Shown here: positions 1,134 through 40,868 of the stretch, piece by piece | Layout: every line of letters starts with the position of its first letter | How positions within the stretch are numbered: position 1 is the first letter of the stretch | NCBI RefSeq assembly: GCF_007859675.1 | Contig: NZ_CP042305.1 | Location: 1,550,001 to 1,614,000, forward strand | Direction: 5' to 3' | DNA length: 64,000 nt | Source of the DNA: Humibacter ginsenosidimutans | GTDB lineage: Bacteria; Actinomycetota; Actinomycetes; Actinomycetales; Microbacteriaceae | Notes under the pieces: generated by a model | What the model saw: only the letters and a program-made list of their open reading frames with translations | What the model was told of the DNA's origin: nothing | Databases searched by the model: none | Position numbers and translations under genes: made by a program

Positions 1134-2147
1134 GTGAGCGAGCTTCAGCGTGTGACCGTGTTGGCCGGCGGCGTCGGAGGCGCGCGTTTCACGCGTGGGC
1201 TGCTCGCGCATCTGAAGGATGCCCACCCCGACGGCGCCGGCGGCTCACGGGTCGCCGTGACGGTCGTCGTCAACACCGGCGACGACATGACCCTCGACGG
1301 GTTGCGCATCTGCCCCGACCTCGACACCGTGATGTACACGCTGGGCGGGGGCATCAGCGAGGAGCAGGGCTGGGGACGCGATGACGAGAGCCGCCGTGTG
1401 TCCGCCGAGATCTCCGCCTACGGACGCGGCTGGGACTGGTTCACGCTGGGCGACCTCGACCTGGCGACGCACATCGTGCGCACCGACCTGCTGTCCGGCG
1501 GTGCGACGTTGAGCGAGGTGACGGAGTTCTTGTGCAGGCGGTGGCGGCCGGGGGCCACGCTGCTGCCGATGAGCGACTCGCCCGTGGAGACGCACGTGCG
1601 GGTGGCGGAGGCGGTGGACGAGCATCCAGCGGGCTCGCTCATCCATTTCGAGGAGTGGTGGGTGCGGTACCGTGCCGGCGTTCCCGCGACGGAGTTCGTG
1701 CAGGTCGGGCTCGAGAACGCGACGGCGGCGCCCGGCGTGATCGAGGCGATCCGCGGTGCGGACATCATCGTGCTCCCGCCGTCGAATCCGGTGGTGTCGG
1801 TCGGCACGATCCTCGCCGTGCCCGGCGTGCGCGACGCGCTGCGTCAGACCTCGGCGCGCGTGGTGGGTGTCTCGCCCATCATCGGCGGCGCGGCGGTGCG
1901 CGGCATGGCGGATGCCTGCCTCTCCACGATCGGCGTCGAGACCTCGGCGAAGGCGGTCGGAGTGCACTACGGCGCTCGAACCGCGGGCGGCGTGATCGAC
2001 GGCTGGCTCGTCGACGAGACCGATGAGGATGCCGTCGCGTCGCTCGCCGATGCCGGTCTGCGCGCCCGCGCCGTCCCGTTGTGGATGCGGGACGTCGACG
2101 CCACGTCGCGCATGGCGGAGGCCACGCTGGCGCTCGCGCTCGACTGA
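1134..2147 (+). CDS. fbiA: 2-phospho-L-lactate transferase (F420 biosynthesis)
   Basis: FbiA/CofD transfers a phospho-lactyl or phosphoenolpyruvyl unit onto Fo, making F420-0 or its dehydro form. The 337-residue length fits the family. The N-terminal nucleotide-fold motif LAGGVGGARFTRGLL sits near residues 9-23, followed by VVVNTGDDMTLDGLRICPDL, the hallmark CofD segment, and YTLGGGISEEQGWGRDDES. A later LPPSNPVVSVGTIL and VVGVSPIIGGAAVRGMAD are also characteristic. I chose the GTG at 1134 because it lies just before the conserved strand; the open frame extends further upstream without similarity to the family. Together with fbiC and the cofE-cofC gene it nearly completes an F420 pathway in this window. 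Confidence 0.92.
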   Translation: MSELQRVTVLAGGVGGARFTRGLLAHLKDAHPDGAGGSRVAVTVVVNTGDDMTLDGLRICPDLDTVMYTLGGGISEEQGWGRDDESRRVSAEISAYGRGWDWFTLGDLDLATHIVRTDLLSGGATLSEVTEFLCRRWRPGATLLPMSDSPVETHVRVAEAVDEHPAGSLIHFEEWWVRYRAGVPATEFVQVGLENATAAPGVIEAIRGADIIVLPPSNPVVSVGTILAVPGVRDALRQTSARVVGVSPIIGGAAVRGMADACLSTIGVETSAKAVGVHYGARTAGGVIDGWLVDETDEDAVASLADAGLRARAVPLWMRDVDATSRMAEATLALALD

Positions 2148-2222
2148 CATCGGGCAGGCCCGACATGTGACCTCTCGTCTTCGCATTCGCGGGTCTCGCC
2201 CCACCGCCCGGGGACCGCTGCC

Positions 2223-2228
2223 TAGGAT
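2223..2228 (+). promoter_or_regulatory. possible -10 element for the Ddn-like gene
   Basis: The hexamer TAGGAT lies 25 bp upstream of the ATG at 2254 and is followed by a good Shine-Dalgarno (CAGGGAGGAC). Its spacing suits a short leader. No convincing -35 was identified. Confidence 0.4.
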
Positions 2229-2253
2229 CGGCCTCGACTCCAGGGAGGACACC

Positions 2254-2667
2254 ATGGCGGACCACGCGGGCTACAACCAGCCGATCATCGACGAGTTCAG
2301 GGCGAACGGCGGCACCGTCGAGCACTTCGGCCGCGGCCTCGTGCTGCTGCACCACATCGGCGCCAAGAGCGGCGAGGAGCGGGTGAGCCCCGTGGCCGCG
2401 GTCAAGACCGGCGACGGTGAGTGGCTCGTCGCAGGGTCGAAGGCCGGAGCACCAGAGCACCCGGCCTGGTATCACAACCTGCTCGCCCATCCCGACGTCA
2501 CCATCGAGACGCCGGACGACGGCGACGTGTCCGTGCACGTCACCGACCTGAAGGGCGCCGACCACGACGCGGCCTGGCAGCTGTTCACCGGCCGCAACCC
2601 GGGGTTCCTCGACTATCAGAGCAAGACGAGTCGCGTCATCCCCGTGCTGCGGCTGACCCGACGCTGA
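2254..2667 (+). CDS. Ddn-like deazaflavin-dependent nitroreductase family protein
   Basis: A 137-residue small split-barrel protein of the Ddn/F420-dependent family. Visible motifs are LLHHIGAKSGEERVSPVA (phosphate-binding turn), WLVAGSKAGAPEHPAWYHNL, with the family's H-P-x-W-Y-H-N-L block, and the C-terminal FLDYQSKTSRVIPVLRL, in which a tyrosine and the R-x-I-P-V strand are conserved. The ATG at 2254 is preceded by GGGAGGAC. It lies between fbiA and fbiC on the same strand, so it probably uses the F420 they help make. Its physiological substrate is not known; family members act as quinone or enone reductases. A second paralogue is at 491-991 and a frameshifted one at 17106-17565. Confidence 0.85.
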   Translation: MADHAGYNQPIIDEFRANGGTVEHFGRGLVLLHHIGAKSGEERVSPVAAVKTGDGEWLVAGSKAGAPEHPAWYHNLLAHPDVTIETPDDGDVSVHVTDLKGADHDAAWQLFTGRNPGFLDYQSKTSRVIPVLRLTRR

Positions 2668-2747: not shown

Positions 2748-2847
2748 GCCGCTAGGCTGGGCGCGAATCCGCTGTATGGCCCGGGTGTGGGCCGCATTCT
2801 CGTTGTTCGGTCTCTCGACCATTTCCGCTCGATCTCCACCGCCGAGG

Positions 2848-5421
2848 ATGCCCGTGCCCGCCACCCCAGTTCCGCTCACCGCTCCTCCGCGTTCGACGTC
2901 GGCGATGCCCGAGTCCGAACGGCCATCGGGTGCCCGGCTCGCGCGGGCACTGGCGAAGGCGCGCGCGACGGCCGAGGCGGGCATCCCGCCCATGCCGGAG
3001 GATGCCGAGGCGCTGCTCTTCGCGCGCGGAGACGACCTCGACGAACTGCTCGGACTGGCCGGGCGAGTGCGCGACGCCGGACTCGAGGCCGCGGGCAGGC
3101 CGGAGGTCATCACCTACTCGCGCAAGGTCTTCATTCCGCTGACGCACCTCTGCCAGGACCGCTGCCACTACTGCATCTTCGTGCAGACGCCCGGCAAGCT
3201 CGCCAAGGCCGGCATCGCGCCGTTCCTCTCCGAGGAGGAGGTGCTGGAGATCGCGCGCCAGGGCGCCGCGATGGGCTGCAAGGAGGCGCTCTTCACGCTC
3301 GGCGACCGGCCGGAGAACCGGTGGCCCGTCGCCGGGGAATGGCTTGCCGAGCACGGGTACGACTCGACGATCGAGTACATGCGGGCCATGGCCGTCAGGG
3401 TGCTCGAGGAGACCGGACTGCTTCCCCACCTCAACCCGGGCGTGATGACCTGGGCGGAGCTGCAGCGGCTGAAGCCCGTGGCCCCGTCGATGGGCATGAT
3501 GCTCGAAACGACGTCGGTGCGTCTGTGGGCTCAGAAGGGGCAGGCCCACTACGGGTCGCCCGACAAGGATCCCGCGGTGCGTCTGCGCGTGATCGACGAC
3601 GCCGGGCGCTCGCAGATCCCCTTCACCACCGGCGTGCTGCTCGGCATCGGCGAGACCGTGCGCGACCGCGTGGATGCCATGTTCGCGCTGCGCGAGGCAT
3701 CCTCCCGCTGGGGACACGTGCAGGAGGTGATCGTGCAGAACTTCCGGGCGAAGTACGCGACCGCCATGATGAACCGCCCCGACCTGGCGGCCGACGAGTA
3801 TGCCGCGGCCGTCGCCGTGACCCGATTGGTTCTGGGCCGGGATGCCCGCGTGCAGGCCCCGCCGAACCTCACCGACCACGACGAACTGGCTCTCTTGATC
3901 CGCGCGGGCATCGACGACTGGGGCGGCGTCAGCCCGCTCACCCCCGACCACGTGAACCCCGAGCGGCCGTGGCCCCAGATCGACGAGCTCGGCAGGCTCA
4001 CCGCTCTGGCCGGCTTTCGGCTGCGCGAGCGGCTGACCGCCCACCCGCACTTCGTGCGCGCCGGCGAGCCCTGGATCGATCCGGCCGTGCTGCCGCACAC
4101 GCTCGCGCTCGCGGATGCCGACGGGCTGGCCGACGAGGCCGCGCCCGTGGCGGGCCGGCCGTGGCGGCTGGAGGCCGAGCCGGCCCGCCCCGGTGGCACA
4201 TCCGCGCCAGCTTTCGGCAATCGCGCCAGAAAGTCTGGCGCAACAGCCGAGACCTGGCGCGATTACGAAGGATCACCCCTCGGCGCGGTGCTCGACGCGG
4301 CCCGCCGCGACCCCGCGGGCCTCGATGACGCCGACTACGTCGCGCTGCTCGACGCCGACGGTGCCGAACTCGCGGCGCTCACGGCACTGGCCGACGACGT
4401 GCGCCGCGAACGTGTCGGCGACGAGATCACCTACGTCATCAACCGCAACCTCGACTCGTCGCTGTTCCGCGCGATCGGTGCCGTGAATCCGCACTCTCGG
4501 GAGGAGAAAGGCACACCCTCGCGGGGAGAGACCCGCACTCTCGGGAGCAGAGAGGCACCGCCTCGGGAGGAGGAGGGCACACCCTCGCTGACGGCGGAGA
4601 TCGTGACGACGCTGGCGGACGAGGCGTGGGAAGACGGGGCCACGGAAGTCTGCATACAGGGGCGCATCGGGGACGGGATGCCGGCATCCGCGTACCTCGA
4701 CCTGGTGCGGGCGGTGCGCGCGCACCATCCGCTGCACGTGCACGCGTATCGCCCGATCGAGCTGCGGGACGGGGCCACCCGAGCGAACATGCCGTTGGCG
4801 GAATATCTCGCACAGCTGCGCTCGGCGGGAGTAGGAAGCGTGCCCGGTACCGGGGCGCGGATTCTCGACGACCGGATTCGGGGCATCCTCTCCGGCGGCA
4901 CCGAACTGCCCGTGGCGACCTGGCTGGAGACCATCGAGGCGGCGCACCTGGCCGGCCTGCGTTCGACCGCCACCATGGTTTACGGCCACCTCGAGACGCC
5001 GGCCGATCAGGTTGCGCACCTGAGGATGCTCGCCGCCCTGCAGCAGCGCACCGGCGGCTTCACCGAGTTCATCGCCATGCCGTTCGTTCCGAACGACTCC
5101 CCCGTCGAGGTGCCGGGCGCGCGTCCCGGACCGAGCCTGCGCGAGACGAGGGCTGTGCACGCCGTGGCCCGCCTCATGCTCGCCGGCACGATCGACCACC
5201 TGCAGGCCGCATGGACGAAGCTCGGCCTGCGTGGAACCCGTCTGGTGCTGACCGGCGGGGTCGACGACCTGGGCGGCGTGCTCCTCGACGGTGAGCTCGC
5301 CCCCTGGGCGGGACCGGAGCAGGGACGCGTGCTGACCGTCGCCGACATGCAACGCATCGCCGATGAGGTCGCGCGGCCTCTGGCACAGCGCACGACGACG
5401 TACGAACGGGTCGTGCCGTGA
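2848..5421 (+). CDS. fbiC: FbiC: CofG-CofH Fo synthase, CofH half lacking its Fe-S motif
   Basis: FbiC joins two radical-SAM halves that build Fo from tyrosine and a ribityl-uracil. From the ATG at 2848 the protein has 857 residues, the usual length; the frame also allows a start at 2776. The CofG half is normal: KVFIPLTHLCQDRCHYC carries the C-x3-C-x2-C cluster motif near residues 102-109. The CofH half starts as expected with ITYVINRNLDSS near residue 526. The cysteine motif that should follow is absent: the frame reads FRAIGAVNPHSREEKGTPS across four 22-bp tandem repeats (4497-4584). Later CofH landmarks remain (TEVCIQGR, HVHAYRPIE, STATMVYGHLE, RTGGFTEF, ARPGPSLRETRAVHA, QRTTTYERVV). The linker holds an intragenic hairpin at 4203-4261. 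As read, CofH chemistry should fail unless another CofH exists. Confidence 0.88.
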   Translation: MPVPATPVPLTAPPRSTSAMPESERPSGARLARALAKARATAEAGIPPMPEDAEALLFARGDDLDELLGLAGRVRDAGLEAAGRPEVITYSRKVFIPLTHLCQDRCHYCIFVQTPGKLAKAGIAPFLSEEEVLEIARQGAAMGCKEALFTLGDRPENRWPVAGEWLAEHGYDSTIEYMRAMAVRVLEETGLLPHLNPGVMTWAELQRLKPVAPSMGMMLETTSVRLWAQKGQAHYGSPDKDPAVRLRVIDDAGRSQIPFTTGVLLGIGETVRDRVDAMFALREASSRWGHVQEVIVQNFRAKYATAMMNRPDLAADEYAAAVAVTRLVLGRDARVQAPPNLTDHDELALLIRAGIDDWGGVSPLTPDHVNPERPWPQIDELGRLTALAGFRLRERLTAHPHFVRAGEPWIDPAVLPHTLALADADGLADEAAPVAGRPWRLEAEPARPGGTSAPAFGNRARKSGATAETWRDYEGSPLGAVLDAARRDPAGLDDADYVALLDADGAELAALTALADDVRRERVGDEITYVINRNLDSSLFRAIGAVNPHSREEKGTPSRGETRTLGSREAPPREEEGTPSLTAEIVTTLADEAWEDGATEVCIQGRIGDGMPASAYLDLVRAVRAHHPLHVHAYRPIELRDGATRANMPLAEYLAQLRSAGVGSVPGTGARILDDRIRGILSGGTELPVATWLETIEAAHLAGLRSTATMVYGHLETPADQVAHLRMLAALQQRTGGFTEFIAMPFVPNDSPVEVPGARPGPSLRETRAVHAVARLMLAGTIDHLQAAWTKLGLRGTRLVLTGGVDDLGGVLLDGELAPWAGPEQGRVLTVADMQRIADEVARPLAQRTTTYERVVP
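4203..4261. repeat. intragenic imperfect palindrome in the fbiC domain linker
   Basis: Two 28-bp arms (4203-4230 and 4234-4261) separated by 3 bp form an imperfect inverted repeat. Its outer and inner ends are both copies of CGCGCCAG/CTGGCGCG. It encodes part of the linker between the CofG and CofH halves of FbiC, where an in-frame insertion would be tolerated. It looks like a REP-type palindromic element inside a coding sequence. Confidence 0.6.
4497..4584. repeat. four 22-bp tandem repeats inside fbiC
   Basis: Four units start at 4497, 4519, 4541 and 4563, each beginning TCGG or TCGC; three share the core GAGA/GAGG-AGGCACACCC or a close variant. Because 22 is not a multiple of three, each unit is read in a different frame. 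The array covers the position where the CofH C-x3-C-x2-C motif belongs. A related 22-bp array is found at 40718-40868. Confidence 0.85.
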
Positions 5422-6899
5422 GCGACGGCACCATCGAGGTCGACACGCTCATCGTGGGTGCCGGCTTCGCGGGGCTCGGGCTCGGCATCCTGCTGAAGCG
5501 CCGTGCCGCTGCGCGGGGCCGCCACGGGTCTTTCCTCATCGTGGAGCGCGCGGACGACGTGGGTGGAACGTGGCGCGACAACGTGTACCCGGGGGTGGCG
5601 TGCGACATCCCCTCTCACCTGTACTCGTTCTCGTTCCGCACCAGCGGCGACTGGACCCACGTCTACCCCAGCGGCCTGGAGCTGCAGGCCTATCTGCGCG
5701 AGTGCGCGCACGACGAGGGTCTCGCGCCGCATCTGCGCTTCGGCGAAGCGGTCGTCGACGCACGCTGGAACGAGGCCGACCGTCGCTGGGTCGTCACGAC
5801 GACCCGAGCCACGTATCGGGCCACAGCACTGGTGAGCGCCGTCGGCCGGCTGAGCGAGCCGCGGCTGCCCGCGATCGAAGGGCTGAGCGGCTTTCCGGGC
5901 CGCGTGCTGCACACCGCGGCATGGGACGATCGCCTCGAGCTGGCGGGCGAGCGCGTCGGGCTCGTCGGCACCGGGGCATCCGCCGTGCAACTGCTGCCCC
6001 ACCTGCAGCGCGCATCGAAGCAGGTGACCGTGTTTCAGCGCAGTGCGCCCTACGTGGTGCCGCGCGGCGATCGTGAGTACACCGCTCGGGAACGTGCCGA
6101 GCTCGCCGATGCCGGCGCGCGCGACCGACTGCGCGAACGGCTGTTCGCGGACGCCGAGGCGGGGTTCCCGGCACGGATGCGCGAACCCGTCGCGATCACG
6201 TCGCTGCGGGAGCGCGCTGCCGCGCACCTGCGCGATCAGGTGGCGGATGCCGGGCTGCGGGCATCCCTCGCCCCCGACTACGAGATCGGGTGCAAGCGCG
6301 TGCTGCTCAGCGACGACTTCTATCCGGCGATCGCGTCGGCGAACGTGACGCTGGAGGCGTCCGCCCTGGATCACGTGGAGGGGATGACGGCGGTCGCGGC
6401 GTCGGGAGAGCGGCACGACCTGGACGTGCTGGTCTTCGCCACCGGCTTCAACGCGACGAGACCGCCGTTCGCCGATCTCGTGTCGGGCAGAGACGGCATC
6501 GGTCTCTCCGAGCATTGGGTCGCGGGCATGCGCGCCTACGCGTCGACGTTGGTGCACGGCTTTCCGAACCTGTTCGTGCTCGACGGACCGAACGCGAGCC
6601 TCGGCCACAACTCGGCCGTGCACATGATCGAGACGCAGCTGCGCTACGTGCTCGGCGCGCTCGACCACCTGGCGGCGAAGGGCCTTCCGCTCGATGTCCC
6701 GCAGGAGGTCGAGGATGCCTACGTGGCGGCCATCGACGACGCCGCCGCGGATTCCGTGTGGCTGAGCGGCTGCCGCAACTGGTACGTCGACGAGCGCAGC
6801 GGGCGGCTCACGCTGTTGTGGCCGGGCACGGCGCAGTCGTTCCGCGACCGCGTCGGCACGTTCGATCCGAGCGTGTTCGAGGTGCCGGTGGCGGGATGA
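5418..6899 (+). CDS. flavin-containing (Baeyer-Villiger type) monooxygenase
   Basis: A 493-residue two-dinucleotide-fold monooxygenase. The FAD-binding GAGFAGLGLG is near residues 14-23, followed by ERADDVGGTWRDNVYPGVAC, the classic G-G-T-W block. The NADPH site GLVGTGASAVQLLPHL is near residue 180. The monooxygenase fingerprint appears as FPGRVLHTAAWDD, matching F-x-G-x3-H-x3-W except that D replaces the usual P or S. The GTG start overlaps the fbiC stop as GTGA (5418-5421), so it is probably translated with fbiC. It would insert oxygen into a ketone, or oxidise N or S, using NADPH and O2. Coupling to fbiC does not show that it has a role in F420 metabolism. Confidence 0.88.
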   Translation: MSDGTIEVDTLIVGAGFAGLGLGILLKRRAAARGRHGSFLIVERADDVGGTWRDNVYPGVACDIPSHLYSFSFRTSGDWTHVYPSGLELQAYLRECAHDEGLAPHLRFGEAVVDARWNEADRRWVVTTTRATYRATALVSAVGRLSEPRLPAIEGLSGFPGRVLHTAAWDDRLELAGERVGLVGTGASAVQLLPHLQRASKQVTVFQRSAPYVVPRGDREYTARERAELADAGARDRLRERLFADAEAGFPARMREPVAITSLRERAAAHLRDQVADAGLRASLAPDYEIGCKRVLLSDDFYPAIASANVTLEASALDHVEGMTAVAASGERHDLDVLVFATGFNATRPPFADLVSGRDGIGLSEHWVAGMRAYASTLVHGFPNLFVLDGPNASLGHNSAVHMIETQLRYVLGALDHLAAKGLPLDVPQEVEDAYVAAIDDAAADSVWLSGCRNWYVDERSGRLTLLWPGTAQSFRDRVGTFDPSVFEVPVAG

Positions 6900-8644: not shown

Positions 8645-9448
8645 ATGCCCTTCAACGTCGACCAGCCGGTGAGCATCGGCGTGCAGCTCGCACCCCAGCA
8701 CGCCGAGTACTCGACCATTCGCGACACCGTGCTGCGCCTCGAAGACCTCGGTGTCGACATCGTCTTCAACTGGGACCACTTCTACCCGCTCTCCGGCGAC
8801 CGCGACGGTCTGCACTTCGAGGGCTGGACGATGCTCGGCGCCTGGGCGGAGCAGACCGAGCGCATCCAGTTCGGTCCGCTCGTCACCTGCAACAGCTATC
8901 GCAACCCGGATCTGCTCGCCGACATGGCCCGCACGGTCGACCACGTCAGCGCGAAGGGTGGCGAGGGCCGCCTGGTGTTCGGCATCGGGTCGGGCTGGGC
9001 CCGCCGCGACTACCGGGAGTACGGCTACGAGTTCGGCTCGGTCGGATCACGTCTCGACGACCTGGCGGAGGCGATGCCGCGCATCCGCCGCCGATGGGAG
9101 CTGCTCAACCCGGCGCCCACTCGGCACATCCCGGTGCTGATCGGCGGCGGCGGTGAGCGCAAGACACTGCGCATCGTCGCCGAGCACGCCGATGTCTGGC
9201 ACAGCTTCTCGGACGCCGACGAGTTGCAGCACAAGCTCGACGTGCTCGAAGGATGGTGCGAGCGCGTGGGACGCGACACCTCCCAGATCACGATCTCGGT
9301 CGAGCCCGAACGCACGCAGACCTCCGCCGAATACGAGGAGTTCCGTGCGCTCGGCGCACGCCTGTTCACCACGCAGATCAGCGCCCCCGACTACGACTGG
9401 GATCGCGTGCGGCGCCTGCTGGCGTGGCGCGACGCCGTCAACGGCTAG
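8645..9448 (+). CDS. LLM class F420-dependent oxidoreductase
   Basis: A 267-residue luciferase-like TIM-barrel protein. Signature segments are VSIGVQLAPQHAEY (first strand), DIVFNWDHFYPLSG, FGPLVTCNSYRNPDLLADMARTVDHVS (the common L-V-x-x-x-x-R-x-P block), VFGIGSGWARRDYREYGYEF and PVLIGGGGERKTLRIVAEHADVW. These match the subfamily that uses F420 rather than FMN. The gene follows PhzF at 84 bp. Its substrate is unknown. A perfect hairpin repeat (9504-9562) lies 55 bp after its stop. Confidence 0.88.
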   Translation: MPFNVDQPVSIGVQLAPQHAEYSTIRDTVLRLEDLGVDIVFNWDHFYPLSGDRDGLHFEGWTMLGAWAEQTERIQFGPLVTCNSYRNPDLLADMARTVDHVSAKGGEGRLVFGIGSGWARRDYREYGYEFGSVGSRLDDLAEAMPRIRRRWELLNPAPTRHIPVLIGGGGERKTLRIVAEHADVWHSFSDADELQHKLDVLEGWCERVGRDTSQITISVEPERTQTSAEYEEFRALGARLFTTQISAPDYDWDRVRRLLAWRDAVNG

Positions 9449-11923: not shown

Positions 11924-13516
11924 TCAGCGTGCAAACGACGGGCGGGCGGCGAGCAGGTCCTCCGTCGCCGAGCCGAAGCTGCCGCGGAAAGCCTCGAGGG
12001 TTCGGGGATCGTCGACGTCCTGACGCAGGCTCGATCCCGTTGCGACGACGAGCTCGACGAACCCGGCGTCGCGGTGCAGCGCCGCCGAGCCACGGCCGAA
12101 CCTCGACGAGATCGTGGCACCCGGCGCGGCCGTGATCGCCGTCGTCCCCGTGCCGTCGGCATCGGGGACGAAGGAGTACGGATGCCCGTGCCGCGCCGCA
12201 TCCACCGCCGACCGCAGCGCCGCGTCGAGGTCTTCGCCGCGGAGCGCAGGCAAGTCGCCGACCAGCACCGCCACGAACGACCCCGGGTGCAACCGATGCG
12301 CCGCGAGCACACCGGCGGCGACCGCCGCGTTCAGCCCGGCACTCGGGTCGGGGACGATCGCATCGGCGCGTGAATGCACAGTCTCGGCGAGGGACGGCTC
12401 GCTCGAGACGACGATGACGGCGTCGACCGCCACGGCCGTCCGAATCGCATCGAGCGTGTCCAGCAGGAACGCCGACGACAGCCGGCGTCGATCCAGCCCC
12501 GCCTCCCCCGCGAACCGCGACTTCGCGCCGTCGCCGCCCTTGAACGGCACGACGACCGTCCACCGGGGCCGGGCGCCGGTCGCGAGCGCGAGGCCGGCGG
12601 CCAGTCCGCTGCGGTACCCCTCGGCGAGCGCCTCGTCGGTTCCGAGCCGGAACATGTCGCCCTGGCCGGTGCGGGTCAGGGAGCGCCCGGCGGTGAACGG
12701 CGCCGAGCGCTGCGGCTCCAGCAGCCGGGCGGTTCCACGCACGACGGCCACGGGGCATCCGCTCGCCTTGCCCTTCACGAGGTCGCCGAGCGCGGCGAGT
12801 TCGTCGCCGACGGCGGGCTGCGTGACCGCGAGGGCCCTTCCGGCCGCGTCGGTCTGGCCGCGCAGATCGTCGACGACGCGCACCCCTGCCGCACCGATGG
12901 CGAGGTCGGTCTGGCCGATGCGCCACGTACGACCCAGCGTGTCGCTGATGATCACGCCGAGCTCGATGCCGAAGCGCGCGTTCCACGCGGCCAGCAGCGC
13001 GCGAGCCGACGCGTCGGGATCCCGCGGCAGCAGCAGCACCGAGCCATCGGCGACATTGCTGGCGTCCACGCCGGCGGCCGCACCGACGACGCCCTGCCGG
13101 TTCTCCACGATGCGGGTCACCCCGCCGTCGTAGGCGCGCGTCGCGACCACGCGCACGGTCTCATCCGTGATGGCCTGCTCGCGGTCGTCGGCGGCGACCA
13201 CCCTGCCCTCGGCCTTGGAGACGATCTTGCTGGTGACGATCAGGATGTCGCCGGAACGCAACGCCCGCTCGGGGTGCGCGGCGGCATCCGCCTCGAGCGC
13301 GCCGGCGACGATCGCGGCGAGGTCATCGCCCGGCGCGATCTCCGGGATGCCGGGCACAGGCCACGCGGTGATCGCGCCGGTCGTGGGCGCTTCGGCACTC
13401 GGCGGCGCTTCGGGACTCGTCGATGCGTCGGCGCTTCCTGAGCGAGCGAAGCGAGTCGAAGGACTCTCGGCGTGCTCAGAGTGCTCGGGCTCCCTCATCG
13501 ATGGGGCCCCGCTCAT
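11924..13516 (-). CDS. CofE-CofC fusion: F420-0 gamma-glutamyl ligase and phospholactate guanylyltransferase
   Basis: A 530-residue fusion of two F420 enzymes. The N-terminal half (about residues 45-270) is Cof[59 protein letters not shown] and [14 protein letters not shown] are its landmarks. A segment [20 protein letters not shown] recalls the linker of mycobacterial FbiB. The C-terminal half (about 312-520) is CofC/Fbi[31 protein letters not shown] and [17 protein letters not shown] form the nucleotidyltransferase site. Mycobacterial FbiB instead carries a nitroreductase half. The ATG at 13516 overlaps the stop of the upstream LLM gene (ATGA), so the two are coupled. The first 40 residues are low complexity and partly encoded by a palindrome-like sequence at 13437-13463. 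Confidence 0.9.
13437..13463. repeat. candidate dispersed element in the N-terminus of cofE-cofC
   Basis: The sequence CCTGAGCGAGCGAAGCGAGT and the following TCGAAGGA encode [10 protein letters not shown] in the disordered N-terminus. Its self-complementary GCGAGCGAAGCGAG character resembles short dispersed repeats often seen in actinobacterial intergenic regions. There is no second exact copy in this window that I could find. Confidence 0.35.
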
Positions 13517-14520
13517 CGATGGAGCGCAGGCAGCACGTCGCGCCCGAAGACCTCGATCCACTCCCGCTGGTTGCGGCCGACGTTGTGCAGGTACACCCGG
13601 TCGAAGCCGAGGTCGACGTACTTCTGGATCGCGGCGCGATGCACGTCCGGGTCGCTGGAGATGACCATGCGGCCCTCGAAGTCCTCCGGCCGCACGATCT
13701 TGGCGATCTGCTCGAACTCGAAGGGCGAGCGGATGTCCGCCTTCGGAAACTTCATGCCCCCGTTCGGCCACTCGCGCACGGCGTTGGTCAGGGCCTCCTC
13801 GTCGGTCGGCGCCCAACTCAGATGCAGCTGCAGCACGCGAGGGGCGTCATCGGGGTTCTTGCCGGCATCCCGCTGCCCCTCGTCGAACTTCGCGAACAGG
13901 CCGCTGATCTTCTCCAGCGGCGCGCCGACGGTGATGAGGCCGTCGACGCTCTGACCGGCGCGCTTGGCCGTCACCGGGCCCGCCGTGGCGATGAGGATCT
14001 CGGGTGCCTGCTCCGGCATGGTCCACAGCCGGGTGGACTCGAGCTTGAAGAACTGCCCCGAGTGCTTCGTGTCACGGCCGGCCAGCGACGCGGAGAAAAG
14101 CTTCTTGATGATGTCGATGGCCTCGAACATGCGGTTGATGCGCTCGGGCGCCTCAGGCCAGTACCCGCCGACGATGTGCTCGTTGAGCGCCTCTCCCGAC
14201 CCGAGTCCGAGCCAGTGGCGGCCCGGGTACATGGCGGCGAGGGTCGCGGATGCCTGCGCGACGATCGCGGGATGGAACCGGAAGCTGGGGGTGGTCACCC
14301 CCGGCCCGAGGTCGCCGTTCGTGCGCTCGCCGATGGCCGTCAGCACGTTCCAGACGAAGGATGCCTGGCCCTGTGTCGGCACCCACGGCTGGAAGTGATC
14401 GGCGGCCATCACCCCCGAGAATCCGTGCTGTTCTGCATGCGCGCTCAGCTCGACGACCTCCATGGGGGCGAACTGCTCGAGCATCGCGGCGTATCCGACC
14501 TGGAGTTCACGCGTAGCCAT
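13513..14520 (-). CDS. LLM class F420-dependent oxidoreductase, Fgd-like
   Basis: A 335-residue TIM-barrel protein of the F420-dependent glucose-6-phosphate dehydrogenase (Fgd) group. Landmarks are [36 protein letters not shown] with the D-H-F-Q-P-W core, [36 protein letters not shown] and [16 protein letters not shown]. Mycobacterial Fgd supplies reduced F420, and a similar job fits here, though the sugar-phosphate specificity cannot be assigned from these motifs. The ATG at 14520 is well placed for the first strand. Its stop overlaps the start of cofE-cofC, which ties F420 use to F420 synthesis. Confidence 0.9.
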
Positions 14521-14649
14521 GCCACCATTCTGCCGATCCCGCCCCGTCCGCACGTGGCCCTGATCGCCGCTCGGCTCGTGACGACCCGACTCGACATTTC
14601 TGGATTGCCAGGTGCCTGCCGGTTTCGGAATGCCGTACCGGGTAGTCTG

Positions 14650-15840
14650 ATGGGAGCGATCGGCGTTTTGCCTTTGGCGCACACTCAGCCGCAGGCTGCC
14701 AACGAACGGCACATTCTCATCGCCTCTTCTTCCGCAGCGACGACGCTTTCGGAGGGCCGGCTGGGTCGCCTCAGAACCACAGGCCGTACGAGTCCCGTCG
14801 GTCCCGATGTCGCCGCGTCGTACACGCAAGCCTCTCGCGCAGTGAAAGCGAACGGCCTTCTCGTTCGTGCCAAGGGCTTCTACCTACTCGTCGCGACAGC
14901 CCTTGTGCTCGCAACGGCCGCCGACGTCGCCGGCATGGTCCTGCTCGGTCACAGCTGGTTCCAGCTCATCCTCGCCGGCGTTCTTGGACTGATCCTGACG
15001 CAGTTCGCCTTCCTCGCCCACGAAGCCGCTCACCGTCAGATCCTGACGTCGGGCCCGGCGAACGATCGGCTGGGCAGGTTCCTCGCCACCTTCGTGATCG
15101 GCATGAGCTATGCGTGGTGGATGAACAAGCACTCCCGGCATCACGCCAATCCGAACCAGGTGGGCAAGGACCCCGACATCGCCGTCGACACCATCTCGTT
15201 CCTCGAAGAAGACGCCGCGAAACGCACCGGCGTCATGGCCTGGATCACCCGGCGCCAGGGCTACCTGTTCTTTCCCCTGCTCTCGCTCGAGGGCGTCAAC
15301 CTGCACGTGACCTCGACACGCATCCTGTTCGGCAGAGACGCCGTCAAGCGCCGCAAGACCGAGATCGCGCTCATCGCCACCCGGTTCGCGCTCTATCTCG
15401 GTGTGTTGTTCGTCTTCTTGCCCCCGGGAATGGCTGCGGCGTTCATCGGCGTGCAGTTCGCGGTGTTCGGCATCTACATGGGCGCGTCGTTCGCCCCCAA
15501 CCACAAGGGCATGCCGATCATCCCCAGAGACCTCAAGCTCGACTTCTTCTCGAAGCAGGTGCTCACCTCCCGCAACATCACAGGCGGCTGGTGGGCGACC
15601 ACGCTCTTCGGCGGCCTCAACTACCAGGTCGAGCACCACCTCTTCCCGAGCATGGCCCGGCCGCACCTCTCCAAGGCGAGGCTGCTCGTGCGCGAGCACT
15701 GCCTGGCCAATGGCATCGACTACACCGAGACGACCATGATGGAGTCGTACTCCATCGTCATCGCCTACCTGAACAGGGTCGGCCTCCATGCACGGGATCC
15801 GTTCGCGTGCCCTATGGTCGCGCAATATCGGGGCGCATGA
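14650..15840 (+). CDS. membrane fatty acid desaturase
   Basis: An acyl desaturase of the membrane di-iron family, 396 residues from the ATG at 14650. All three histidine boxes are present: HEAAH near residue 129, HSRHHAN near 161 and QVEHHLFPSM near 328. Hydrophobic segments flank them (LVATALVLATAADVAGMVLL, FALYLGVLFVFLPPGMAAAF). It introduces a double bond into a fatty acyl chain and so raises membrane fluidity. The first 60 residues are poorly conserved-looking, so the true start may lie later. A cold-shock protein gene follows by 102 bp, which suggests cold adaptation. The upstream open frame is antisense to the LLM gene and is not part of the protein. Confidence 0.88.
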   Translation: MGAIGVLPLAHTQPQAANERHILIASSSAATTLSEGRLGRLRTTGRTSPVGPDVAASYTQASRAVKANGLLVRAKGFYLLVATALVLATAADVAGMVLLGHSWFQLILAGVLGLILTQFAFLAHEAAHRQILTSGPANDRLGRFLATFVIGMSYAWWMNKHSRHHANPNQVGKDPDIAVDTISFLEEDAAKRTGVMAWITRRQGYLFFPLLSLEGVNLHVTSTRILFGRDAVKRRKTEIALIATRFALYLGVLFVFLPPGMAAAFIGVQFAVFGIYMGASFAPNHKGMPIIPRDLKLDFFSKQVLTSRNITGGWWATTLFGGLNYQVEHHLFPSMARPHLSKARLLVREHCLANGIDYTETTMMESYSIVIAYLNRVGLHARDPFACPMVAQYRGA

Positions 15841-34447: not shown

Positions 34448-34491
34448 CACGGGCCGCTGCCGATCACTGCCGGACGAATGCTTCCCAGCAT

Positions 34492-34680
34492 CACCGCCGG
34501 CCAACCACTCACCAGACCCGCCGCCGACCGACCACTCACCAGACCCACCGCCGACCAACCACTCGCCAGACTCACCGCCGACCGACCACTCGCCAGACTC
34601 ACCGCCGACCAACCACTCACCAGACTCACCGCCGACCAACCACTCACCAGACCCACCGCCGACCAACCACTCACCAGACT
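34492..34680. repeat. seven 27-bp tandem repeats (minisatellite)
   Basis: Exactly seven 27-bp units with core CAACCACTCACCAGAC and the preceding ACCGCCGAC. Units differ by one to four bases, mostly C/T and A/G changes. A truncated eighth copy starts at 34681. It lies after the NYN gene and is likely to vary in copy number. Confidence 0.95.
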
Positions 34681-34713
34681 CACCGTCGACATGACGATTC
34701 GAACGTTCGCCCC

Positions 34714-40621: not shown

Positions 40622-40717
40622 CTCGCACTCTCCCTCGACTGCCGGGCACAGCGGGATGCCGTGAGCCGGTCCCTCCATGATCACCCGGGACAGCGCGGTG
40701 GCAGAACCACTGGCCGG

Positions 40718-40868
40718 TGGTGCGAAGAGAGGAACACCGGGGCGCCACGAGAGGAACACCGTGGCGCGACGGGACGAACACGGTGGTGCGACGAGACGAG
40801 CACCTTGCTGCAACGAGGCGAGCACCGTGGCGCCACGAGAGGAGCACGGGAGTGCGGCGAGACGAGCG
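40718..40868. repeat. seven 22-bp tandem repeats upstream of the esterase operon
   Basis: Units start at 40718, 40740, 40762, 40784, 40806 and 40828, with a partial seventh from 40850. The consensus core is GACGAGAGGAACACCG. Compared position by position, it matches the first fbiC unit (4497) at 15 of 22 bases, so both arrays may belong to one repeat family. Confidence 0.85.

Follow-up and report, generated by a model that had tools for sequence, protein, structure and literature searches.

A cluster-less FbiC and its companion monooxygenase suggest a second route to cofactor F420 in Humibacter and related soil bacteria

The fbiC locus of Humibacter ginsenosidimutans

The window analysed here is a stretch of 64,000 nucleotides from Humibacter ginsenosidimutans, bases 1,550,001-1,614,000 of a single 4.18-Mb contig belonging to a genome that is 99.92% complete. 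Near its beginning lies a gene resembling fbiC, whose product in F420-producing bacteria makes FO, the precursor of cofactor F420, with two radical S-adenosylmethionine (SAM) halves named CofG and CofH. This gene overlaps the start of a second one, for a predicted type I Baeyer-Villiger monooxygenase (BVMO), which is aligned below with phenylacetone monooxygenase (PAMO). The tandem array listed was located with Tandem Repeats Finder (TRF).

2776..5421, + strand: fbiC-like gene, 881 aa; fusion of an intact CofG half with a CofH half that lacks the radical-SAM cluster site
3151..3174, + strand: CofG C-x3-C-x2-C motif, intact (C126, C130, C133)
4441..4449, + strand: NRN segment (residues 556-558), directly after which the CofH cluster motif is expected from comparison with canonical FbiC
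4492..4587, + strand: 22-bp tandem array (residues 573-604) within the free loop found in place of the cluster loop
4588..5418, + strand: conserved part of the cluster-less CofH barrel
5418..6899, + strand: predicted type I BVMO gene, 493 aa, translationally coupled to fbiC (gtga overlap, 4 bp with the fbiC stop)
5562..5606, + strand: GGTWRDNVYPGVACD, BVMO residues 49-63, aligned to PAMO GGVWYWNRYPGARCD; D63 pairs with PAMO Asp66
5892..5927, + strand: BVMO fingerprint, F-x-G-x3-H-x3-W-D (FPGRVLHTAAWD)
6297..6299, + strand: BVMO Arg294, which pairs with PAMO Arg337 in the alignment

As a whole, the open reading frame (ORF) of the fbiC-like gene passes the NCBIfam model PRK09234 (1056.7 bits, cut-off 1018); the family match starts at residue 44, and the real start of the gene may lie downstream of 2776. 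The CofG half is that of a normal CofG (TIGR03550, 485.5 bits, cut-off 213.35), and the CofH half fails its own model (TIGR03551, 362 bits, cut-off 374.1), the best stretch of which covers residues 601-879 only. The protein holds just five cysteines (C126, C130, C133, C168 and C626), and a single one, C626, lies in the CofH half, which thus lacks a C-x3-C-x2-C motif of its own. These results bear out the original prediction for this locus, which had described an intact CofG half next to a CofH half devoid of its cysteine motif and had found no such motif in the other plus-strand frames over this stretch: the pattern C-x3-C-x-F-C-x-F has no match in any of the six frames at 65 cluster-less loci, including the window over its full length, and the same loss recurs across the bacterial family. 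With one defining feature missing, the protein is by its sequence not a canonical FbiC, and could still act as one with a partner.

The prediction had also reported the 22-bp array, which TRF confirms (4492-4587, period 22, score 94; 4489-4572, period 44, score 126), and had tied the loss of the motif to it. That connection did not hold up: since most cluster-less relatives carry no array (example NRNIDSSLLGRPLQHGELTL), it is rejected as the cause of the loss and is incidental, sitting in a disordered free loop. In a predicted model the loop with the array (model residues 508-535, ORF residues 573-600) has a predicted local distance difference test score (pLDDT) below 50, and within the genus of the window the loop shows a ratio of nonsynonymous to synonymous substitution rates (dN/dS) of 0.74. 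Two further tandem arrays occur in the window, at 40715-40867 (periods 22/44/66) and at 34491-34690 (27-bp units, 7.4 copies). The linker between CofG and CofH contains a 28-nt inverted repeat (4203-4261, 82% complementary, 3-nt spacer) as well as an 11-nt perfect one (4219-4229 with 4254-4264), and together these look like a second small insertion in the gene.

Distribution and constraint of the cluster-less FbiC

In an even sample of 398 genomes from the family of the window (the family sample), CofG is found in 93 genomes and a CofH match likewise in 93. Among these 93 FbiC genomes the motif is kept in 26 and missing in 66, with one fragmentary case (G246) unclassifiable. The two classes do not grade into each other: the canonical proteins carry NRNINFTNVCYTGCRFCAFAQR and exceed the CofH cut-off at 508-527 bits in 25 cases, the 26th (G346) being interrupted by a contig end, whereas the 66 cluster-less matches score 147-338 bits and, each having been read, all have a loop, of varying length, between NRN and the next helix. 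The motif is missing from all five sampled genomes of the genus of the window, so that close relatives in which it is restored, the sign of an assembly error envisaged in the original prediction, did not emerge; Humibacter albus DSM 18994 is among the carriers of the cluster-less type. Furthermore, when the C-terminal ~340 residues were compared with 5.8 billion proteins, 120 matches were listed, among them proteins from Humibacter, Gryllotalpicola, Promicromonospora, Isoptericola, Nocardioides and Agreia, of which 118 lack the motif, none has it and two could not be anchored. The cluster-less proteins of the listing P0121-P0240 are annotated by their sources as CofG or as bifunctional FO biosynthesis protein CofGH, an annotation that hides the cluster-less type and by which pathway predictions would score these proteins as complete.

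At the level of the class, 273 of 394 genomes have a CofH match, 253 above the cut-off and 20 below it, and 14 of the latter (the other six belong to the family of the window) lie outside the family. In four of these 14, all from one genus of another family, a frame the size of FbiC is present and lacks the motif. Five of the remaining ten were inspected: two (G517, G736) show the canonical motif in a cut or broken FbiC, two (G458, G786) read like MqnC, and one (G678) is only distantly related and has no FbiC context; the other five (G464, G499, G515, G575, G728), with frames of ~390-510 aa and presumed to be MqnC or MqnE, were left aside. Both FbiC types are met within the single genera g12, g17, g106, Nocardioides and g145, which argues for horizontal exchange, and by these sequence comparisons fbiC and the BVMO gene appear to have moved as a unit. 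In two genomes of the family sample FbiC is irregular, split over two frames in G364 (locus L106) and fragmentary with a stop in G246 (L079), through either sequencing error or decay.

A second CofH elsewhere, another option of the original prediction, is rejected for the genome of the window. Searches of the genome of the window return only the fbiC-like ORF, both with its own protein and with the CofH profile at E<=10, and no separate second CofH was found at E<=1e-12 in the 93 FbiC genomes, where the additional CofH rows represent fragments of the one fbiC gene or, in the case of G046, the CofG half. A radical-SAM profile gives 12 matches in the genome of the window, among which MoaA, MiaB, LipA and an Rv2578c-like protein were recognised by eye.

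The cluster-less half retains the barrel fold shared by CofH, MqnE and MqnC and most of its conserved positions, 65 invariant ones being kept, and has acquired new invariant residues (R659, E740, D838, G839 and P843); the core motifs of the CofG half show no class-specific change between cluster-less and canonical proteins. Over four genera the dN/dS of the cluster-less half is 0.13-0.28, compared with 0.05-0.14 for canonical CofH and 0.02-0.15 for CofG. The cluster-less half is therefore under purifying selection, weaker than that in a working CofH, and it does not behave as a pseudogene or relic, constraint being kept and the frames open in nearly all loci except G246 and G364.

A monooxygenase linked to the cluster-less FbiC

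The gene that overlaps the end of fbiC lay outside the original prediction. Its product carries the type I BVMO fingerprint, F-x-G-x3-H-x3-W-[P/D], and F-x-G-x3-H-x3-W recurs in 63 of the 65 copies associated with cluster-less FbiC (hereafter the module, with its module BVMO). R294 and D63 are invariant in 36 aligned orthologues, and the PAMO residues with which they pair, Arg337 and Asp66, both of which appear as mutants in PDB titles, belong to the active site. By sequence, the closest solved relatives are steroid and phenylacetone monooxygenases, and a search by Foldseek with the predicted model (pLDDT 89.4), which has the expected two-domain flavin and nicotinamide dinucleotide (FAD/NADP) fold, returns cyclohexanone, phenylacetone and steroid monooxygenases at E ~1e-42 to 1e-37, with template modelling (TM) scores of 0.78-0.84 by query length. 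Fold, fingerprint and residue pairing thus identify the partner as a type I BVMO of predicted activity. It shares all three with the phenylacetone, steroid and cyclohexanone monooxygenases, but is only ~24-30% identical to them, is shorter at 493 aa and is encoded together with fbiC.

The association of this gene with cluster-less FbiC is strict. Clustering of neighbourhood ORFs places the BVMO family in 52 non-canonical loci and in no canonical one, and tblastn raises the count to 65 of 67 non-canonical loci, in each of which the gene lies 0-1277 bp after the FbiC match and on its strand, the two misses being a contig end (G166) and the fragmentary G246. None of the loci of the 26 canonical genomes has it, although that of G346 retains just three bases downstream. 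A profile search (E<=1e-60) of 80 genomes, namely the 26 canonical ones, 52 with cofD but no fbiC, G166 and G000, recovered the G166 copy on another contig (bases 302-1750, preceded by the first 302 bases of that contig) and detected other BVMO relatives in five canonical genomes (G043, G219, G253, G309, G321) and in six of the 52. In a tree, the 66 module copies all group together in a single clade (100/100) that excludes these other relatives, and the orthologue is accordingly present in 66/66 classifiable cluster-less, 0/26 canonical and 0/52 of the tested genomes with cofD but no fbiC.

The same picture was obtained beyond the family sample. Among 80 named loci, all ten cluster-less ones have the BVMO downstream and none of the 69 canonical ones has a match, one locus lacking an intact ORF by the pattern used. 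Six of the ten already belong to the family sample (G002, G049, G151, G188, G273, G419), as do at least four of the canonical ones (G046, G143, G174, G239), and in some canonical loci the sequence available downstream is short; the four new cluster-less loci come from Promicromonospora soli, Arthrobacter sp. MYb23, a Cryobacterium metagenome-assembled genome (MAG) and a contig in an Acidobacteriaceae MAG. In the genus of another family, all four cluster-less genomes have a BVMO (49% identity) within 30 bp of fbiC, and in two genomes of that genus with CofH above the cut-off the locus yields no BVMO match. A further genome of the window's family, G804, likewise combines cluster-less FbiC with the BVMO. 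Co-occurrence in the family sample, the named loci and the other family rules against a chance neighbour.

In 62 measurable loci, the spacing between fbiC and the BVMO gene is <=10 bp in 31, 11-250 bp in five and >250 bp in 26, with a stop-start overlap of exactly -4 in 23; the value of -776 for G404 stems from the start that was chosen and is artefactual, and in that genome the BVMO match begins 866 bp after the FbiC match. All 26 large gaps, and none of the other measured loci, contain an alpha/beta-hydrolase-like ORF (for example L052, L071, L048 and L053); several of the matches are weak, Pfam confirms a hydrolase for both of the two ORFs tested, and the G-x-S-x-G motif is missing in 12 of the 26, including all seven of genus g107. 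The gene is thus optional in the module, and the hydrolase was rejected as a required partner. An esterase next to a BVMO is a familiar pairing. Among the matches listed, the long BVMO forms P0089 and P0103 have N-terminal parts that match the hydrolase-like ORFs and look, from these matches, like hydrolase fusions; no hydrolase domain is assigned by Pfam to any of P0089, P0109 and P0117.

F420 context and a possible oxygen-dependent route to FO

The gene pair is set among genes of F420 biosynthesis and use, with cofD upstream of fbiC, a cofE-cofC frame downstream and F420-dependent enzyme families around them.

1152..2126, + strand: cofD (fbiA) homology within ORF 990-2147, TIGR01819 above its cut-off
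2023..2667, + strand: deazaflavin-dependent nitroreductase family gene, TIGR00026 above its cut-off; its start is probably further downstream than 2023
8645..9448, + strand: LLM-class F420-dependent oxidoreductase, TIGR03856 above its cut-off
11924..13816, - strand: fused cofE-cofC frame (CofE 12647-13369, CofC 11987-12559)
13513..14829, - strand: F420-dependent LLM oxidoreductase, TIGR03557; below the cut-off of the FGD model itself

CofE and CofC share one open frame here, whereas FbiB is described as CofE joined to a nitroreductase domain (PMC8498797). All but one of the 67 non-canonical genomes have CofC, CofD and CofE (66 for each protein); the exception, G308, has none of them, and the CofE matches of G246 and G364 fall below the cut-off. 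A non-canonical fbiC occurs in 66 of 174 family genomes with cofD and in one of 224 without (Fisher test, in which independence is overstated because of shared history). At locus L238, cofC follows the BVMO gene with cofD nearby (CofC match 101.4 bits, cut-off 105). Of the three readings originally offered for the lost motif, a broken F420 synthesis is a poor fit, given the strong conservation of CofG, the constraint on the cluster-less half and the retention of CofC, CofD and CofE; with the second CofH also gone, other chemistry in the CofH half is the reading that survives.

CofH is described as generating a p-hydroxybenzyl radical from tyrosine and adding it to ribityldiaminouracil, after which CofG closes the ring, and the two FbiC domains appear to act independently through a diffusing intermediate (PMC8498797). 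The pattern in the genomes is one of replacement, in which a BVMO accompanies cluster-less FbiC and CofG and the F420 tail genes are kept. The favoured explanation, to which a probability of roughly 0.65 is assigned, is that the BVMO and the cluster-less CofH barrel together replace the radical-SAM CofH step and provide an oxygen-dependent route to FO. A flavin BVMO with O2 and NAD(P)H would take over the task of CofH by splitting a compound derived from tyrosine between C-alpha and C-beta, so that a 4-hydroxybenzyl group is set free, a two-electron flavin oxygenation thereby substituting for radical-SAM C-C cleavage. In such a scheme 4-hydroxyphenylpyruvate (or 4-hydroxyphenylacetaldehyde) would be oxidised to a 4-hydroxybenzyl ester, the cut falling on the same C-C bond as that of CofH because the benzyl group would migrate to oxygen. 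PAMO reportedly converts a benzyl ketone into a benzyl ester, the type of reaction proposed here. The ester could then lose its acid by elimination to give p-quinone methide, which would alkylate C5 of 5-amino-6-ribitylaminouracil held in the cluster-less barrel. By our own mass balance, C9H16N4O6 + C7H6O = C16H22N4O7, which is the composition of the CofH product, so that CofG need not change, and its core motifs are indeed unchanged. The intact CofG half would close the ring to FO, and CofD, CofC and CofE would complete F420. This particular quinone-methide chemistry, together with movement of the pair between actinobacterial families as a module, is put forward only tentatively and is held to be less probable than not.

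Each of the component families is already known. The protein resembles FbiC, or CofG plus CofH, in the order of the fusion, the CofG cluster motif, the CofH-type barrel and the company of cofD, cofC and cofE, and differs from it in the deletion of the CofH cluster loop or its exchange for a free loop, in the new invariant residues and in the obligatory BVMO. MqnE (aminodeoxyfutalosine synthase, PDB 6xi9 and 6xig) is a radical-SAM enzyme of menaquinone synthesis, whereas the cluster-less half has no cluster motif. In the open-licence PMC literature, the scope of which excludes subscription papers and preprints, neither a description of this FbiC-BVMO module nor a type I BVMO serving cofactor synthesis was found, nothing was found there on PAMO R337 together with D66, and the combination is to that extent undescribed.

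Several alternatives were weighed against the oxygen-dependent route. The module might make a different deazaflavin, from another building block or by modification of FO, and hence an F420 analogue; the invariable presence of the BVMO, the new invariant residues of the cluster-less half and the occurrence in other bacteria of the chemical variant 3PG-F420 (PMC8498797) would suit this idea, but the unaltered CofG core motifs, the retention of the same CofD, CofC and CofE and the replacement of one FbiC type by the other within single genera, which fits one shared product, make it unlikely. Somewhat less likely again is that FO is taken from neighbours while a repurposed FbiC and the BVMO perform another job connected with deazaflavins. 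FO is reported to cross membranes (PMC8498797), uptake as a source of FO is compatible with the data, and the many sample genomes with cofD but no fbiC (82 of 174) may take up FO or use another source; nevertheless, uptake fails to explain the constraint on CofG and the strict coupling to one BVMO, and the 52 of those 82 genomes that were checked have no module BVMO orthologue.

It is also conceivable, if still more doubtful, that CofG performs both radical steps while the cluster-less half serves as a scaffold that holds the substrate, and that the BVMO uses or protects the product rather than making a precursor. CofG and CofH are related barrels and the cluster-less half keeps many residues of binding type; however, an enzyme that has taken on a second reaction would be expected to show some class-specific change in its core motifs, of which none was seen in CofG, and the absence of the BVMO from every canonical genome tested would be left unexplained. 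Decay or an assembly artefact at the repeat array, to which the array itself, the interrupted fragments of G246 and the split frame of G364 might point, is very improbable and is refuted as a general explanation by the absence of the motif from otherwise open frames in a large majority of the 66 genomes and in 118 of the 120 best protein matches, by purifying selection and by the joint occurrence of the pair in other families.

A number of observations also weigh against the replacement of the CofH step by the BVMO and the barrel. The evolutionary rate of the cluster-less half is roughly double that of canonical CofH and in two of the four genera is not below that of the linker, and in a mirror-tree analysis of 60 loci the BVMO tracks CofG, as the scaffold alternative would have it, better than it tracks the cluster-less half (partial r 0.55 versus 0.28). 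In a quick-method tree of the CofG half (93 rows, without Arthrobacter sp. MYb23) the two FbiC types require two changes, and a very long outlier row (L022) accounts for one of them; with approximately one change between the types, the genomes cannot count as independent, and the case is overstated by the Fisher values. The 82 genomes with cofD but without any CofG or CofH mean that tail genes alone are no proof of local FO synthesis. Furthermore, the Pfam label of the BVMO is FMO-like only, its chemistry is a prediction from sequence, and the proposed route does not account for the extra hydrolase-like gene in 26 loci.

According to a 2021 review, all studied F420 producers make FO by a universal mechanism that involves two SAM-radical domain enzymes (PMC8498797), a rule that dozens of sequenced genomes appear to break. 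If the oxygen-dependent route is correct, a flavin oxygenase replaces a radical-SAM step, the production of FO and F420 in ordinary hosts could become easier, and the question of the origin of the cofactor in these organisms reduces to two genes. The cluster-less FbiC and its BVMO thus suggest a second, so far unreported route to the F420 cofactor in many related soil bacteria.

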